Of a stretch of DNA of 64,000 nt, positions 1,866 to 8,161 are shown one piece after another. How positions within the stretch are numbered: the stretch's first letter is position 1; the number at the start of each line of letters is the position of its first letter. The position numbers were made by a program, and so were the translations under genes. The notes beneath the pieces are model-generated. The model did no database searches. It saw nothing but the letters and a program-made list of their open reading frames with translations, and was not told the origin of the DNA. The DNA is taken from assembly GCF_001956585.1 (NCBI RefSeq), contig NZ_MSRR01000013.1, positions 1 through 64,000 on the forward strand, in the 5' to 3' direction. The stretch comes from Actinomyces naeslundii. GTDB lineage: Bacteria; Actinomycetota; Actinomycetes; Actinomycetales; Actinomycetaceae.

Positions 1866-2465
1866 GTGACTACTCCCCCGCCGATCCGCGCACCCAGGCC
1901 CACGCCGCTGTCGGGTGAGGAGGTGGTGGCCGGTACGGATGCGACGGTCGTGGATTTCTGGCGCTTCGCTCTGTCAAATCTCCGGATGAACAATGCCCGT
2001 GGCTACCTGGCTGAGTTCCTGGTGGCGAAGGCGGTCGGCTCGACCGGACTGCGGATCGAGTGGGATCCTTACGATGTTCTGGCGCCGGATGGGACCACGA
2101 TCGAGGTCAAGACCTCTGCCTACCTCCAGGCGTGGGACCAGTACAAGCTCTCAACGATCCAGTTCACGGGGCTTCGCAGTCGCATCTGGTCCACAGAGGG
2201 TGGGCTGACGCCAGTTCCCACCTACAACGCCGCTGTGTACGTCTTCGCGATCCAGACAGCGCGCACCCACGAGGAGTACAACCCGCTCCTGGCCTCGCAA
2301 TGGCGCTTCCACGTCCTTCCTAAACGGACGATAGAGGATCTTGGTCAGGACTCCATTGGCCTGACAACCCTGGAGAAACTTGCCGGTCCCTCAGTTGCGT
2401 ACGAAGAACTTTCTGAAGCCATCAACGCCGCAGCCAGGAAAGACAACAAGAGTCCACAGCACTGA
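1866..2465 (+). CDS. small PD-(D/E)XK nuclease-like protein, unknown role
   Basis: A 199-residue protein not matched to a named family. It has a nuclease-like core: helix RGYLAEFLVAKAV (E50), then strand RIEWDPYD (D70) and IEVKTS (E80-x-K82). This is the D-x9-E-x-K spacing of PD-(D/E)XK endonuclease folds (restriction enzymes, Holliday-junction resolvases, VSR-like). The rest is rich in aromatic residues with no other motif. The GTG start lies about 6 nt after a GACAAT -10-like box, so the mRNA may be leaderless. It sits alone between the AIM24 gene and a truncated AIM24 copy, with no methyltransferase next to it. Nuclease activity is inferred from the motif only. Confidence 0.55.
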   Translation: MTTPPPIRAPRPTPLSGEEVVAGTDATVVDFWRFALSNLRMNNARGYLAEFLVAKAVGSTGLRIEWDPYDVLAPDGTTIEVKTSAYLQAWDQYKLSTIQFTGLRSRIWSTEGGLTPVPTYNAAVYVFAIQTARTHEEYNPLLASQWRFHVLPKRTIEDLGQDSIGLTTLEKLAGPSVAYEELSEAINAAARKDNKSPQH

Positions 2466-2555
2466 CGTTGAGTCAAAGACGACCTGCACCGGAAACGATT
2501 CATATCCCGCCTAATCTCATCGGGCTCTGACCAGACACCATCGAGGGATGAGACG

Positions 2556-2795
2556 GTGCCTGGCCCCGATAACGGGCTGCCTGCACGTCTGGACAACTCG
2601 CAGCAACCGACCTTCGCTGACACACAGGAGGCGACCTGCGAGTCAACGAACTTGCAGCCGCAGATCAAGAGCAACTTCAAGATGATCTCCCTCATTGAAC
2701 GCAGGTCGGGCGATTCCTTCCATCTGGCCTTCCATGGTCCGGGCTTCGCGGTGGTCCAACCCAGCGAGAGCCAGCCGGTGGTGACGGCTTCCTGA
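2556..2795 (+). pseudogene. truncated second copy of the AIM24 gene 3' end
   Basis: A 79-codon open frame whose last 68 residues align without gaps to the last 68 residues of the AIM24 protein encoded at 1044-1712, about 51 of 68 identical (for example NLQPQIKS, FKM, SLI, LAFHGPGF, VVQPSE, QPVV). The DNA match covers 2589-2795 against 1506-1712, equal length, both ending at the stop. The first 150 or so residues of the family are missing, so this is a gene fragment. A GTG at 2556 could start a short peptide, but no good ribosome site is visible. The two copies bracket the PD-(D/E)XK-like gene as a direct repeat. Confidence 0.75.
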
Positions 2796-2919
2796 ACTGG
2801 GTCTCTGCGGATCTTCACTACTCAGTCAACCATTCTCGAGGTAACTGCCGGCCAGGGGTTCGTCGACAAAGGCAATAATGCGATCGTCTGCTTTTCGTGT
2901 GTCTCTCAGATACAAACAC

Positions 2920-3186
2920 TCAGGCCGCACCATAAAATGTCTCCACGTCCACAAGGGCCTGATCACGAATCAGTGGGTACAACGAGTTTCGTGACACCAG
3001 GTCAACTGGACGTCCGAATAGGTTAGCAAGATCTTGAGACAGGCCCTCAAACTCTCGACCGAGTCTGAGCAAGTTCGTAAGACGATCGGCGTCGCTTCCT
3101 GGCCGATCCTCACCACGAGCGACCGATTCAAAGACATCGAGGCATGCAATCCTGAAACGACGACTGATTGCATCCAACCACCCCAT
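2920..3186 (-). CDS. degenerate MNT-type nucleotidyltransferase (orphan MntA-like)
   Basis: An 88-residue protein resembling minimal nucleotidyltransferases (MntA antitoxin type). The family line FGSxARGExRPxSDxDLLV is seen as FESVARGEDRPGSDADRLT (residues 19-37), and the family C-terminal segment appears as LFGRPVDLVSRNSLYPLIRDQAL. The metal-binding D32-x-D34 and D62 (VDLV) remain, but the Gly of the GS motif is Glu (FES), and the hydrophobic strand after the DxD is altered, which suggests decay. The start is ATG at 3186; an upstream in-frame ATG at 3324 would add unrelated residues. MntA normally pairs with a HEPN toxin HepT; none is visible next to it. It lies in the AT-rich island. Confidence 0.6.
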   Translation of the reverse strand: MGWLDAISRRFRIACLDVFESVARGEDRPGSDADRLTNLLRLGREFEGLSQDLANLFGRPVDLVSRNSLYPLIRDQALVDVETFYGAA

Positions 3187-3519
3187 TATTGCTTTTACCA
3201 CCACACCTGAAGTATATCTAAACAGGGTATCGTTGTATTTTCCAAAATGAACTGCCTGCAAGGTGTAGATCAACATTCTACCAAACTTCGTTGCTAGTCG
3301 GAACCTCAAACAAACCCACCTCACCTCACATGCCGAGAGTCAGCTCACTTGCTCACACTGCGGAAACTTATGGGCGGCCGACGAGCAATACTCGACTCAA
3401 CCATACAAGCACCTCAACCCCCATCGTCACTGCCGACACTCATTCCAGCACCCCTACCCCCTACACACCACAAAGGAATTCATCCACCCCCTTGAAAACT
3501 CAAGAAGACACTCGTGAAA
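3187..3519. other. 333-bp AT-rich gap in the island
   Basis: No supported gene. A plus-strand open frame here encodes a Thr/Ser/Pro low-complexity string and runs into the antisense of the GTPase gene, so it is not credible. The base composition is clearly more AT-rich than the flanking chromosome. It should hold the promoter of the MNT-like gene and the end of the GTPase transcript, but I see no convincing hexamers or hairpin. Confidence 0.5.
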
Positions 3520-4542
3520 CTATTCAGCAGACAACATTAACCATTTTACGAGATCTGAAGATAGTTGCTGATTCCTTGCCTGTAAAGCCGAAGAAACGGT
3601 ATAGCGGATCACAAACTCTGACGACAATCTCTCGCTAAAATTATTCACGTAGCTTACGATGTCTTCATCCTTAATTTCTCTTTCCTGAACGATTTGAGTG
3701 CGATCGAATACCCGAAACAGAGCTCCACAATCTGAAGAATGTCGGACAGCCTCACCATCAAACTTGCTGAACACTACGAGTAACGGAATTGCACTCTTAG
3801 CGCCTCTCCGTGAGTTACTAATTAACTTTGCCGCCATCTCAAGATCTGACACATCATCAACCAAACCACTCTTACCGCTGCGCAGTTCTGGAACAGAAAC
3901 GACGTGCACCAACGCATCAGAAGACGCCACCAACGTCAGATACGGACGCTCAGACGAACTTGTTTCCTCTAAACTAGCCCAATTCTCGCCGGCTGTATCA
4001 GCAATAGATATCTCGTATATGCTAGAACCACTATACTTTGTATGACGCGAAAGTTCTCCTTTCACCACCGACACTCCATCGGCACTGGTTTCCACAGGCC
4101 AGTCACCCAAGTCAAAGCCTTTCAGCATTCGAAACATCTTTATTATGTTATCCGTTTCCCCCGAGAATTCTACATCCTCCGGAGGAGAGGAGGAAATAAT
4201 ATAGTAAAGCAGGACAGAAAATACCGTTTTCCCGACCCTAGGTCGTCCGGTAAGAGATATTCTCATCCTATAGCGACGGCGACGATGCATTCGACGATGT
4301 ATCAAGATGAAGGCAAAAATAATGTATGCTATGTACACAATAAGCATGGACGCCAGCAAAGAGCGTCGCGAATCTGAAAACTCGCCCCCGCTCAAGCTAG
4401 CGAGCGCCGGGAACAACGTAACCAACGCGCAAAGCAGAGAAATGAGTGATGCTACCACAGCAAATATGTCTATTCGTTGTAGACGTCTCTTGATATCCAC
4501 CGACTCAGGTGATCGTTTTTCATAGTCTTGAATTTCAGGCAT
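3520..4542 (-). CDS. membrane-tethered GTPase-like P-loop NTPase
   Basis: A 340-residue protein with two N-terminal membrane helices (about 25-50 and 61-82), a highly basic stop-transfer run (HRRMHRRRRYR) and a cytosolic P-loop domain. Walker A/G1 is GRPRVGKT (99-106), the G3-like motif is DTAGE (182-186), and the G4-like motif is SKFD (259-262, in place of NKxD). WPVETS before G3 could be the G2 threonine region. The layout recalls bacterial conflict-system GTPases (DO-GTPase2-like), but that family assignment is inference. The start is ATG at 4542, because GGAGGT sits 8 nt upstream and the frame then overlaps the previous stop as ATGCCTGA. It is co-translated with the 4-TM gene. Base composition marks the pair as acquired. 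Confidence 0.65.
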   Translation of the reverse strand: MPEIQDYEKRSPESVDIKRRLQRIDIFAVVASLISLLCALVTLFPALASLSGGEFSDSRRSLLASMLIVYIAYIIFAFILIHRRMHRRRRYRMRISLTGRPRVGKTVFSVLLYYIISSSPPEDVEFSGETDNIIKMFRMLKGFDLGDWPVETSADGVSVVKGELSRHTKYSGSSIYEISIADTAGENWASLEETSSSERPYLTLVASSDALVHVVSVPELRSGKSGLVDDVSDLEMAAKLISNSRRGAKSAIPLLVVFSKFDGEAVRHSSDCGALFRVFDRTQIVQEREIKDEDIVSYVNNFSERLSSEFVIRYTVSSALQARNQQLSSDLVKWLMLSAE

Positions 4543-5086
4543 TTTCTTGACCTCCGAGAATAATCCACCCTTCATAGATTGCGACAATCGCTAAGGACGT
4601 ATAGCTAAGTATCCAATAAAGAACTCCCGGAGAATGTTGAGTCACCTCTGTCGCTAATGATTGAGCAATCTGAATGTTCCCATCTTGCTCACTTGACTTT
4701 ACCGCCGCCAACAATCTTGTTACCTGCGCTGTAGAATCACAAGCCACCAAAACGGTCATTTCAATCATTAAAAACATGCCGGACAGAAATGCGACAAGCC
4801 AACCGTGCGATTCCTTAGGTTTTCCCCAATTTCGGGCGAGCAACGCTATCATTACTGCACAGACAGTCGCACCGCAGTCCCCAATTGATAGATTAAATAC
4901 CCCCATCTGGTTGTACCTAAACAGCCATATAGAGAAATTGGGAATAAGAATTGGAACAACAATCAAGACTAGGTATTCTACAATTCTAACTCTGAGAGGA
5001 ACGTCTCCCCAATATCCTCTTTTCGATGTAGACTCAGAAAAATCAGCTCGCCTTCCAAGACTATCCATCACACCTCGCATAAGCAT
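4535..5086 (-). CDS. four-helix membrane protein coupled to the GTPase-like gene
   Basis: A 183-residue protein with no recognised family. Four hydrophobic segments are visible: YLVLIVVPILIPNFSIWLF, then one around GATVCAVMIALLA, then WLVAFLSGMFLMIEMTVLVA, and a last one around VLYWILSYTSLAIVAIYEGW. A polar loop (about 118-150, rich in Ser/Gln/Glu) separates helices 3 and 4 and should lie outside if the N-terminus is cytosolic. Its stop overlaps the start of the GTPase-like gene by 8 nt, so the two are one operon and probably one complex. Alternative starts are at 5080 and 5068; the last has GAGGTG immediately upstream but tightly spaced. The role is unknown. Confidence 0.6.
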   Translation of the reverse strand: MLMRGVMDSLGRRADFSESTSKRGYWGDVPLRVRIVEYLVLIVVPILIPNFSIWLFRYNQMGVFNLSIGDCGATVCAVMIALLARNWGKPKESHGWLVAFLSGMFLMIEMTVLVACDSTAQVTRLLAAVKSSEQDGNIQIAQSLATEVTQHSPGVLYWILSYTSLAIVAIYEGWIILGGQENA

Positions 5087-5122
5087 GGTTATTTTTTCAC
5101 GTGGACTTGCACCGAAGTTGCA

Positions 5123-5139
5123 TTTAGATCGATTCTAAA
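5123..5139. promoter_or_regulatory. palindrome upstream of the membrane/GTPase operon
   Basis: TTTAGA and TCTAAA arms surround TCGAT, 37 bp before the start of the 4-TM gene. On the minus strand it contains TAGAAT, a plausible -10 box, so it could be an operator over the promoter. No clear -35 box is seen. The rest of 5140-5384 holds no gene that I can support. Confidence 0.3.
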
Positions 5140-5384
5140 GCCTTTTTGCCACTACCCTCCCTATTGTGAATATTGGATAGATTGTTCGGGAAGTACTGTT
5201 GTAGCGGCACCTACGTCGCCACGCCTGCTGTAAGCTCAGTCAGGAGCAGTATGCGCTTTTCGCTAATGAGGCCACGCTAAAGATCAGCGCCTGGAATGGC
5301 GGGACACATAAACATAATCACATAAATTCGGAGTCGGCTAGAGGACTAAAGTATGCCTCAAAGAATTTTGTTACTTTTATGCAC

Positions 5385-6470
5385 CTAAACATTAAACCTG
5401 AACTCGACGACATCCCCGTCTGCCATGACGTAGTCCTTTCCTTCCATGCGCACTCGGCCGTGAGCGCGGGCTTCGGCAACGCTGCCGTACTGGACCAGAT
5501 CATCATAACTCACGATCTCTGCCTTGATAAAACCCCGCTCAAAGTCAGTATGGATGACACCCGCTGCCTGAGGCGCCGTCGCGCCCTTGCGGATCGTCCA
5601 CGCGCGGGACTCCTTCTCCCCCGCCGTCAGGTACGTCTGCAGCCCCAGGGTGTCGAAGCCGACCCTGGCCAGCTTGTCCAGACCGGACTCCTCCTGCCCG
5701 TTCTCATGCAGCATCTCCGCTGCCTCCTCCGGCTCCAGCTCCACGAGCTCGGCCTCGAACTGGGCGTCCAGGAAGATCGCCTCCGCCGGCGCCACCAACT
5801 CGCGCAGCTCTGCCTGACGGGCCTCGTCGCTCATCCCGGCGTCGTCCATGTTGAACACGTAGATGAAGGGCTTGGTGGTCATGAGCTGGAAGGTCCCCAG
5901 CACCTCCGCATCAATCCCTGCGGCCTGCGCCCCGGCGGACAGCAGTGTCCCCTCCTCCAGGACCTTGAGGGCCGCTTGCGCCGTCTCCAGCACCACGGGC
6001 TCCGTCTTCTTGCCCCGCACCTCCTTCTCCAGGCGCGGGATCGCCTTCTCCAGGGTCTGCATGTCCGCCAGCACCAGCTCGGTGCTGATCGTCTCGATGT
6101 CCCCGGCCGGTTCCACCTTGCCGTCCACGTGGACCACGTCCGGGTCCTCGAAGGCGCGCGTCACCATGCAGATCGCGTCGGCCTCACGGATATTGGCCAG
6201 GAACTGGTTACCCAGCCCCTCGCCCTCACTGGCGCCGCGCACGATCCCGGCGATATCCACGAAGGAGACCGTCGCCGGGACCACCCTCGCGGAGTGGAAC
6301 AGCTCGGCGAGCTTGTCCAGGCGCGCATCCGGCAGGGGCACAACCCCCACGTTCGGCTCAATGGTTGCGAACGGGTAGTTGGCGGCCAGGACGGTCGCAC
6401 GGGTCAGGGCGTTGAACAGGGTGGACTTGCCGACGTTGGGCAGTCCGACGATTCCGATGGTAAGTGCCAC
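5385..6470 (-). CDS. ychF: redox-regulated ATPase YchF (Obg family)
   Basis: A 361-residue cytosolic Obg-family P-loop ATPase that binds ribosomes and prefers ATP to GTP. The G1 motif GLPNVGKST lies at 9-17, followed by the YPFATIEPN switch I, DIAGIVRGAS (G3), the NMDD element in the G4 position that marks YchF, then the coiled-coil insertion (LEKEVRGKK region) and the C-terminal TGS domain ending VEFRFNV. Length is usual for the family. The GTG at 6470 gives the family-typical ALTIGIVGLPNVGK N-terminus; a GTG at 6500 would add 10 residues. It has no clear operon partner. Confidence 0.93.
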   Translation of the reverse strand: MALTIGIVGLPNVGKSTLFNALTRATVLAANYPFATIEPNVGVVPLPDARLDKLAELFHSARVVPATVSFVDIAGIVRGASEGEGLGNQFLANIREADAICMVTRAFEDPDVVHVDGKVEPAGDIETISTELVLADMQTLEKAIPRLEKEVRGKKTEPVVLETAQAALKVLEEGTLLSAGAQAAGIDAEVLGTFQLMTTKPFIYVFNMDDAGMSDEARQAELRELVAPAEAIFLDAQFEAELVELEPEEAAEMLHENGQEESGLDKLARVGFDTLGLQTYLTAGEKESRAWTIRKGATAPQAAGVIHTDFERGFIKAEIVSYDDLVQYGSVAEARAHGRVRMEGKDYVMADGDVVEFRFNV

Positions 6471-6550
6471 GCAGGAGAGTTTAGACGGCCCCTCCGACAC
6501 CGTGCGCCCCGACGGCGTCCCCCGGCGGGATCAGGCCGCCGGAGCACCAC

Positions 6551-8161
6551 TCACTTCCCGGCGGTGTTGCTCACCCGGACCGAGGCCCGCAGATCACGCC
6601 ACGAGGTGTAGAAGCCCCCGCCGGCGTTGACGCCGATTCCCGCCGCCAGCGCGACCAGGCCCGCCGTCACCATCACCACCACGATGCGTCCCAGGATCGC
6701 GCCGCCCAGCCGCGCCACCGACGGCTTGCCGCCGTCACGCCGTCGACCCCAGCGGGGCGACCAGAACAGGGCGGTTCCGAGCGCGACCAGCGCGGCGACC
6801 ACCGCCACGGTGATGGTGCCCAGACCGTTGATCTCGAAGGGCTTGGCACGCGTCGGCGAGAGGGACCCCACCACACGCTGGTCCCTGGGCGTCTCCGTCA
6901 GAGGCCTCACGCCGGCGGCGGTGGCCTTGGCCCATACATCGCCCTCCTGCGCCGGCAGACCGGCCGCGGCGAAGACCGCCGGGTCCGAGCCCCACCACGT
7001 CAGCAGCGACGGGAAGTAGTTGTTCCACAGGACCCAGGAGTGCCCGCCGTGAGCCGGGGTGTCGATCGTTACCGAGTCGGGCTCCCGCGCCGCGTCCTCC
7101 ATGAACCAGGCGGCCCGGGCCGAGCCGGTGGAGTCGTCCTGGGCCCCCATGACGTAGAAGCGCAGGCCGTCGGGCTTACGCGCTTCCAGCATGGTGGACA
7201 GCGTGTTCTGCGCCTGGAGCTGCTTGCCCCCGTGAGCCAGTGCCCCCTCATCGGGGTGGTCGAAGGCGGACATGACGCCCACCGAGCCGAATCGCTGCGG
7301 GACGTCATAGGCGGTCCGGGCCGCGCAGTAGGCGCCCGCTGAGATACCCATGAGCATCCATCCGGCCCGCTGCGTGGAGACATTGGGGAAGGTGGCCTGA
7401 ATCATGCGGGGGATCTCCTCGGCGGTCCAGGTCTCCACGGGCGGGCGGCCGGCGATATTGACGCAGTCGTGCTGGCTGCCGTCCACGTTGACCGAGGGGA
7501 TCACCATGATCGACGGCGGGATGCGGCCGGCGTCGATCGCCTCCTGGAGCCGCTTGGGCGAGGCCATGCCCGTCACCAGGGACTGCGGGTCACCGACCCA
7601 GCCGTGGATGCCCTCGATGACGTTGTAGGTGCGGCCGTCATCAGGCCTGTAGCCCGACGGCACGATGACGCGCACCGGCAGAGTGATGCCGCTGACCGGA
7701 CCGGTCCAGGTGGCCTCCTGGGAGCCGTCGCCGGCATCGTGGAAGGACGCCTTCCAGGCCGAGGCTGGGGCGGCCTCGTAGGCGGAGGCCTCCGGCAGGG
7801 GCGTGACGCGCGAGACGACCTGGGTTCGTGGGGAGGCCGCCTCGATGACGTCGCCGACAGTGCGCACGTAGTGCATGGGCCGGTTGATGAGCAGCCCCGC
7901 GAGCACCATGACGAGCAGCACCGGCACACTCACCATGACGGTGCGAGCCGTGTAGCGTCCGACGGCGCGCAGCACCGTTCGGAGCGCGGGGTGGGCAGGG
8001 CCGTCAGCGGTCTTCTCCCGCGTGGCGGCCGGGACCGTCCGTGGCAGGAGTACTGCCGCGATGACGGCGGTCAGGAGGGCGAGAAGGGCGACGGCCAGGA
8101 TCAGCTTGAAACTGGTCAGTTCGATACCACGCAGGACGCTCACGTCTACTAAGCATGGCAC
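6551..8161 (-). CDS. membrane-bound alpha/beta-hydrolase, esterase family
   Basis: A 536-residue protein with an N-terminal membrane helix (LILAVALLALLTAVIAAVLL), a second one near 80-100, an extracytoplasmic esterase domain and two C-terminal helices. The nucleophile elbow is GISAGA in the context WMLMGISAGAYCA, typical of the esterase D/antigen-85-like superfamily; DDS and HGGHSW later supply likely acid and histidine. This resembles actinobacterial esterase family proteins that act on cell-envelope acyl groups, but the substrate cannot be read from sequence. The GTG start at 8161 is uncertain; GAGGAGG lies about 19 nt upstream, further than ideal. Confidence 0.75.
   Translation of the reverse strand: MPCLVDVSVLRGIELTSFKLILAVALLALLTAVIAAVLLPRTVPAATREKTADGPAHPALRTVLRAVGRYTARTVMVSVPVLLVMVLAGLLINRPMHYVRTVGDVIEAASPRTQVVSRVTPLPEASAYEAAPASAWKASFHDAGDGSQEATWTGPVSGITLPVRVIVPSGYRPDDGRTYNVIEGIHGWVGDPQSLVTGMASPKRLQEAIDAGRIPPSIMVIPSVNVDGSQHDCVNIAGRPPVETWTAEEIPRMIQATFPNVSTQRAGWMLMGISAGAYCAARTAYDVPQRFGSVGVMSAFDHPDEGALAHGGKQLQAQNTLSTMLEARKPDGLRFYVMGAQDDSTGSARAAWFMEDAAREPDSVTIDTPAHGGHSWVLWNNYFPSLLTWWGSDPAVFAAAGLPAQEGDVWAKATAAGVRPLTETPRDQRVVGSLSPTRAKPFEINGLGTITVAVVAALVALGTALFWSPRWGRRRDGGKPSVARLGGAILGRIVVVMVTAGLVALAAGIGVNAGGGFYTSWRDLRASVRVSNTAGK

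Follow-up and report, generated by a model that had tools for sequence, protein, structure and literature searches.

In this work, two overlapping genes of foreign composition were found directly downstream of ychF in Actinomyces naeslundii, at a variable site that is used for defence genes in related species. The analysis covered 64,000 nucleotides at the start of contig NZ_MSRR01000013.1, which we call the window. Gene 1 encodes a predicted four-pass membrane protein, and gene 2 encodes a predicted membrane-anchored protein which, judged from its sequence, looks like a divergent GTPase of the DO-GTPase kind. We tentatively read the two genes as an immunity module that arrived by horizontal transfer and now occupies a hotspot of defence genes, and rate this as somewhat short of an even chance. 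An immunity module is suggested because two membrane proteins, overlapping genes and one GTP switch occur together in a defence site; phage defence is the reading preferred here, and a defence role, for which the location is the ground, has about an even chance. The features on which the argument draws are the following, by position in the window and strand.

2588 to 2795, plus strand: stretch resembling the 3' part of the AIM24-type genes of relatives (blastn to relatives)
2920 to 3324, minus strand: gene for an MntA-type nucleotidyltransferase with no HepT partner (PADLOC PDC-S09, 5.7e-18; NCBIfam MntA, 28.5 bits, cut-off 60)
3520 to 4542, minus strand: gene 2, open reading frame of 340 aa, DO-GTPase-like with two N-terminal TM helices
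3757 to 3768, minus strand: SKFD, putative base-recognition motif of gene 2, residues 259-262 (alignment and hhalign)
3985 to 3999, minus strand: DTAGE, Walker B of gene 2, residues 182-186 (alignment; its glutamate is as described for DO-GTPases in PMC7159879)
4225 to 4248, minus strand: GRPRVGKT, Walker A of gene 2, residues 99-106 (translation; aligned with the P-loops of DO-GTPases)
4535 to 4542, minus strand: the 8-nt overlap ATGCCTGA, in which gene 1 stops and gene 2 starts (sequence)
4535 to 5086, minus strand: gene 1, open reading frame of 183 aa, four-TM protein
4550 to 4555, minus strand: GGAGGT, ribosome-binding site of gene 2, lying within gene 1, 7 nt 5' of the ATG of gene 2 (sequence)
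5385 to 6500, minus strand: ychF, the conserved right border of the variable site (Pfam YchF-GTPase_C; matched in all 49 genus genomes)

The overlapping pair is almost certainly real. An open frame of 340 codons arose in none of 1000 mononucleotide shuffles of the pair region, and both the 8-nt overlap and the GGAGGT placed before the ATG of gene 2, as described in the original prediction, can be read directly from the sequence; translation of the two genes would be coupled. For gene 1, an alternative in-frame ATG at 5068 with GAGGTG just 5' of it, which yields a protein of 177 aa, is a likelier start than the one at 5086. The proposed AT-rich island was also borne out, as the GC content of genes 1 and 2 is 0.44 and 0.458, respectively, against 0.69 for the window, and the only 1-kb bins with a GC content below 0.58 (three of 64) are those that start at 3001, 4001 and 5001. 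The pair was probably acquired horizontally. No repeat pair bracketing the two genes was found within 2400-6000, and promoter and terminator motifs (two and one matches, compared with 2.9 and 2.0 in shuffles) showed no excess, for which reasons neither integration ends nor a promoter are claimed here. The same motif counts would fit decaying cargo that has lost its function and whose frames are intact by chance, as would the probable MntA-type relic (2920-3324) and gene fragment (2588-2795) beside the pair. Such decay is very improbable in our judgement, since both frames are fully open, the Walker A, DTAGE and SKFD motifs are intact and gene 2 has a precise overlapping start behind GGAGGT.

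The surroundings on the left side of the pair suggest a longer history of the site. The active-site motif of the MntA-type gene is altered, as judged by eye, and this gene is probably a relic of older cargo that came from a toxin-antitoxin pair. The relatives' AIM24-type genes match the window twice, in the gene at 1044-1712 (AIM24 in Pfam) and in the fragment at 2588-2795, which is probably a partial AIM24 duplicate on the left side of the variable stretch. Judging from this partial copy and the MntA-type relic, the site was probably used earlier. Two further genes were noted in this part of the window. The gene at 1866-2465 encodes a 199-aa protein with a stretch that may resemble the core of PD-(D/E)XK nucleases, and it is kept beside the same site in one relative (L050). 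The surface-protein-like gene at 17-868 has DUF5979 repeats, ends in what is presumably an LARTG-type C-terminal anchor and is probably cut by the contig end.

Comparison with relatives showed that the content of the site downstream of ychF differs from genome to genome. In 12 relatives (L043-L054), similarity to the window breaks off at the stop codon of ychF or at most 15 nt before it (blastn borders 5386-5400); in ten of them, it restarts after a gap of approximately 1.6-7.2 kb, within the stretch that holds the gene at 1866-2465 and the AIM24-type genes, and in the other two there is no restart within the stretch that was fetched. The cargo between these borders differs across the 12 relatives. 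Restriction-modification, Abi_2 or Ppl-like genes were found in four of them, namely a BglII-like enzyme with an MT-A70 methylase in L053, Abi_2 in L047, a Ppl-like AAA protein in L044 and an N6 methylase with a specificity subunit in L054. HepT-MntA was present in two (L046 and, by sequence, L052), L046 also having a metallo-hydrolase, while the cargo of L051 gave a weak kinase-like match; frames that looked transposase-like by eye also occurred among the cargo of the 12. The HepT-MntA, Abi_2, BglII restriction-modification and Ppl-like genes, together with ApeA from the wider survey described below, share with our pair the insertion point and, in part, the low GC content; unlike the pair, they belong to named families, and none of them has a family match in common with it. 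The recurrence of HepT-MntA genes or their relic at this site, as well as the small size and overlap of the two genes, would be expected if the pair were a selfish addiction element in which one product is harmful, the other restrains it and the island is thereby retained. We regard this as distinctly improbable, as neither protein matched a toxin or antitoxin family in Pfam, PADLOC or NCBIfam and a membrane GTPase of 340 aa does not resemble the known antitoxins.

A similar picture emerged when 44 of the 49 genus genomes were compared, five being left out. In the first 2.5 kb past ychF, 24 of the 44, including the source, had no 300-nt stretch in common with any other (blastn), a count that may be one too high because one of the 44 stretches has a masked run; the other 20 genomes fell into five groups. 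For 31 further loci (L120-L150), 98 frames were listed, and 45 of these were taken; they were mostly those nearest to ychF and were chosen before any match had been seen. These cargo frames matched 210 PADLOC models at 1e-6, compared with seven models (mad3, mad8, mad2, RTasRmuC, one CARF-LolE and two Csa3) for 43 control frames from elsewhere in the window. Since the tally is not split by locus and the model counts are inflated by redundant models, we describe the hotspot as rich in defence genes and attach no rate to it. Among the first 25 of 34 Pfam families listed for the cargo were five N6_Mtase, two ApeA, two BglII and two MT-A70 members, one C5 methylase and one serine recombinase; the same 25 also included non-defence cargo, i.e., choline-binding repeats, FtsX, YkuD, dehydrogenases and an acetyltransferase. 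The original prediction had compared the pair with GTPase genes of variable islands and had raised the possibility of a new defence or envelope-signalling module. The foreign composition of the pair, its occurrence in the source alone within the genus and the differing content of the site agree with an accessory pair in a variable position, and related species carry defence genes at the same place. We consider it very likely that the pair is foreign cargo of this hotspot.

Several AT-rich inserts at the same site in relatives are unnamed as well. L050 carries a two-gene cassette (3338-5258) that encodes a 229-aa protein with no TM segment and a 362-aa protein with about seven, and that has no match in Pfam (E<=0.1) or PADLOC (E<=0.01). 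The cargo of L045 (3244-4161) includes a 305-aa protein with four TM segments, and that of L049 (9611-11927) consists of three frames, two of which have TM segments. Unnamed membrane cassettes of this kind at the same site, and the combination of a small membrane protein with a membrane-bound NTPase in a variable position, might also point to an immunity cassette in which the two proteins shield the membrane from bacteriocins or contact-dependent competitors. This appears improbable, as the ORF list has no adjoining transporter gene, no toxin or leader peptide was recognised by eye and neither protein matches an immunity family in Pfam, PADLOC or NCBIfam.

The identification of gene 2 relies on its motifs and on profile comparisons. 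A simple hydropathy scan gave two strong TM peaks (26-44 and 63-81) and a third, weak peak (202-220) that lies within the GTPase domain; the topology of both proteins was derived from this scale and from charge and not from a trained predictor. According to hydropathy and charge, a basic N-terminus is followed by two helices with a short outer loop, an Arg-rich linker and a cytosolic domain, of which approximately residues 90-340 are DO-GTPase-like. The GRPRVGKT, DTAGE and SKFD motifs, which had been placed behind two membrane helices, were recovered in the translation and the hydropathy scan, and the protein may, from these motifs, bind and hydrolyse GTP. In Pfam, the two best families were DO-GTPase1 (2e-4, 21.2 bits) and DO-GTPase2 (4.3e-4, 20.5 bits), both under the curated cut-off of 27 bits for DO-GTPases (PF19975 / PF19993), and MMR_HSR1 (0.06) ranked after both of them. 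The core alone gave 22.3 and 21.1 bits in an unchanged order. A search of the source genome with PF19993 did not match gene 2 at E<=0.001, and it was absent at E<=1 from the results of a plain hmmsearch with a 16-sequence DO-GTPase model.

DO-GTPases were described by Kaur et al. (2020; PMC7159879) as TRAFAC GTPases that have a conserved glutamate in Walker B and are encoded with GAP1. We aligned gene 2 with six DO-GTPase or DO-GTPase-like rows, two of which had been found via the query. The P-loop GRPRVGKT and the DTAGE of gene 2 fell in the same columns as those of the DO-GTPases, and seven columns did not vary. These hold two glycines of the P-loop, D and G from DTAGE, the aspartate of an SD (208-209), a serine towards the C-terminus (VS) and a tryptophan in the last helix. 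The Walker-B glutamate was present in gene 2 and in five of the six other rows, the sixth having D, and the K.D motif aligned in only part of the six.

Profile-profile comparison extended this likeness over most of the domain with the larger profiles and did not do so with two smaller ones. Against the six-row profile, two rows of which had been picked through the query, hhalign gave 96% for residues 90-264. A profile of 16 DO-GTPases from the source's taxonomic family gave a probability of 89-90% over 200-203 columns, and an 18-sequence DO-GTPase profile gave 93% over 163-168 columns. In the controls (YchF, a PilT-like ATPase, two AAA-like proteins, an IPP transferase, an AAA_33 enzyme and five shuffles), at most 37 columns were aligned to the 16- and 18-sequence profiles; the labels PilT-like and AAA-like (L043) for these frames, like transposase-like above, are presumptive, some of them having been given by eye. 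With the 18-sequence profile, the IPP transferase and the AAA_33 enzyme reached 81-83% on the P-loop alone, and for this reason the hhalign probability taken by itself is weak evidence. The distant GTPase L079a gave 85% over 163 columns with the same profile. Gene 2 was not found by four-sequence and two-sequence DO-GTPase2 profiles (8-10% and 1.3-1.5%), and a profile of the two L079 genes aligned with it over 90 columns at 45-55%. Of the 16 DO-GTPases in the comparison set, 14 had been collected with the A1 model, which held the query as one of its seven rows. We nevertheless take the set to be genuine, because, of the 13 non-source genomes of the genus that matched the A1 model, 12 were also matched by GAP1-M. 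By eye, the N-termini of the collected proteins are cysteine-rich and zinc-ribbon-like.

Taken together, the top two Pfam families, the glutamate of DTAGE and the alignment over most of the domain with the larger profiles suggest that gene 2 encodes a divergent DO-GTPase-like protein, and a relationship to the DO-GTPases is likely. A TRAFAC-type, DO-GTPase-like nature, for which the original prediction had suggested a search, is supported by the ranking of the Pfam families and by the hhalign alignments, whereas membership of DO-GTPase2 is not, as the curated cut-off was not reached and GAP1-M was not found. GAP1-M was matched in 14 of the 49 genus genomes, in ten of them over the cut-off; the source genome was not matched at E<=0.001 in this GAP1-M search, and in the ORF list no further frame of the island is as large as the GAP1 proteins of L055 and L057 (954 aa). 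Since GAP1-M was not found and the Pfam cut-offs were unmet, the pair was rejected as a DO-GTPase2/GAP1 system, and gene 2, although DO-GTPase-like, is not counted here as a member of the DO-GTPases. It shares with the DO-GTPase/GAP1 systems a P-loop GTPase with the Walker-B glutamate, the SKFD motif (SKFD in L055, GKFD in L057), the SD at 208-209, a (T/A)VS near the C-terminus, the tryptophan of the last helix and membrane association. It differs from them in that gene 2 lies under both Pfam cut-offs, GAP1-M was not found in the source genome and the GTPase is single, as the gene 2 protein and the A1 model each gave one match in the source genome and no paralogous second GTPase. The TM anchor of gene 2 stands where the inspected DO-GTPases of the genus have their cysteine-rich N-termini. 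According to PMC7159879, zinc ribbons occur in 60% of DO-GTPases and N-terminal TM segments in 13%, a TM component is present in 67% of the systems and two paralogous GTPases in 38%. The gene pair is probably a new, GAP1-less and membrane-anchored variant of the DO-GTPase kind.

Searches that reach close to moderate relatives returned no second copy of the pair and no near homologue of either protein. At E<=0.001, gene 2 was matched neither in the 48 non-source genomes of the genus nor in the remaining 395 genomes of the phylum sample, and gene 1 was matched in the source alone among the 49 genus genomes. A pair conserved in all relatives, which would speak against the original prediction, was accordingly not seen, the source being the only one of 49 genus genomes to match either gene. 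In the order sample of 396 genomes, 22 including the source matched gene 2 at E<=0.1; the best other match (3.9e-4) was on TM segments, in what is presumably an M48-type protease-like protein. Seven of the 21 non-source matches were inspected. Five were unrelated proteins, mostly matched on TM segments, one (G779) had no GTPase in its frames, and one (L063, which is the same as L079) was a distant P-loop GTPase with no TM segment. This last locus has two overlapping P-loop genes in a DO-GTPase-like layout (4773-5669 and 5666-6637), with the motifs GR.GVGRS and DFPGD in one and GLAGSGRT and DAAGE in the other and no Pfam match at E<=1. For gene 1, the 396 order genomes gave four weak non-self matches, and these loci had no small four-TM or P-loop frame. 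Neither protein had a relative in peptide-pattern scans of viral and genome contigs or in tblastn searches of plasmids and phages, and PADLOC-DB 2.0 gave 0 families at E<=1 for either. The best match of a PDB sequence search had an E of 0.83, and AlphaFold models built from single sequences (pLDDT 41.0 and 50.8 for the two proteins) were too poor for use. No comparable pair of a GTPase and a four-TM protein was found in the PMC literature on DO-GTPases, GTPase defence, Kiwa and Rex, which includes few subscription papers. As no homologue with both genes together was found elsewhere, the functional linkage of the pair rests on a single locus.

In the case of gene 1, the hydropathy scan placed TM peaks at 38-56, 66-84, 97-115 and 159-177, which bears out the four helices and polar outer loop that had been assigned to it. 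The loop between TM3 and TM4 (116-158, 43 aa) is predicted by hydropathy and charge to lie outside, and the basic N-terminus is predicted to lie inside, i.e., an N-in/C-in topology. The best Pfam match was KbaA (0.017, under the cut-off), PADLOC and NCBIfam gave no match at E<=1 and PHROGs gave just 0.41. The four hydropathy peaks of gene 1 agree with the membrane partners of RexAB-like systems. According to PMC7542560 and PMC12894663, RexB, Butters gp31 and the membrane parts of the Sbash and CarolAnn systems are all four-pass, and the sensor of RexAB is proposed to open a four-pass channel; in PMC7542560, a joint action with a cytosolic partner in abortive infection is proposed for RexB and for three four-pass proteins from comparable phage systems. 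The combination of a switch or sensor with a four-pass membrane protein is therefore shared with RexAB of lambda and the RexAB-like systems (Butters gp30/31, Sbash, CarolAnn and P. putida), whose RexA-type partners are described in these sources as cytosolic and DUF4747-like, whereas here the partner is a membrane-tethered GTPase. Neither gene of the pair matched DUF4747 in Pfam at E<=1.

By this analogy, gene 2 would be a lone switch of the DO-GTPase-like type, anchored in the membrane and independent of GAP1, and gene 1 would be its four-TM partner, produced in step through coupled translation. In the mechanism that we consider likeliest, the GTPase domain beneath the membrane would read an infection or envelope signal, and a change of state of gene 2 with bound GTP would take gene 1 from closed to open; the membrane would then be depolarised and the growth of the infected cell would stop ahead of phage release. 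Physical interaction of the two proteins, a pore function of gene 1 and a trigger from phage are presumed in this scheme. That gene 2 gates gene 1 is possible, if doubtful, and the roles may also be reversed, with gene 1 acting as the sensor via its outer loop. The outer polar loop, the predicted N-in/C-in topology and the cytosolic GTPase would equally suit an accessory, non-defence switch for envelope stress or membrane maintenance, in which gene 1 senses damage by its outer loop and gene 2 transduces the signal. A DO-GTPase family protein reported from some psp operons was predicted to have a membrane-stress role (PMC11237479), and non-defence genes enter the ychF site too. Such a switch seems unlikely, as neither gene was matched in the other 48 genus genomes, the pair is AT-rich and lies in a site rich in defence genes, and no second envelope gene was seen in the ORF list of the island.

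Our reading of the pair as an immunity module has its background in the work on DO-GTPases, which are predicted to be the switches of bacterial conflict systems, those systems being described in PMC7159879 with GAP1 and variable effectors. In its most specific form, which we consider rather unlikely, the pair would be a minimal GAP1-free DO-GTPase immunity module of a type that was absent from the literature searched, i.e., a single anchored GTP switch that directly gates a four-TM pore, and it would merge the DO-GTPase conflict systems with a RexAB-like membrane suicide. Having no more than a membrane-bound switch and a candidate effector, the pair would offer a very simple setting in which the job of the GTPase can be tested. 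The hotspot downstream of ychF is, in addition, a practical place to seek further unnamed defence cassettes in the genus.
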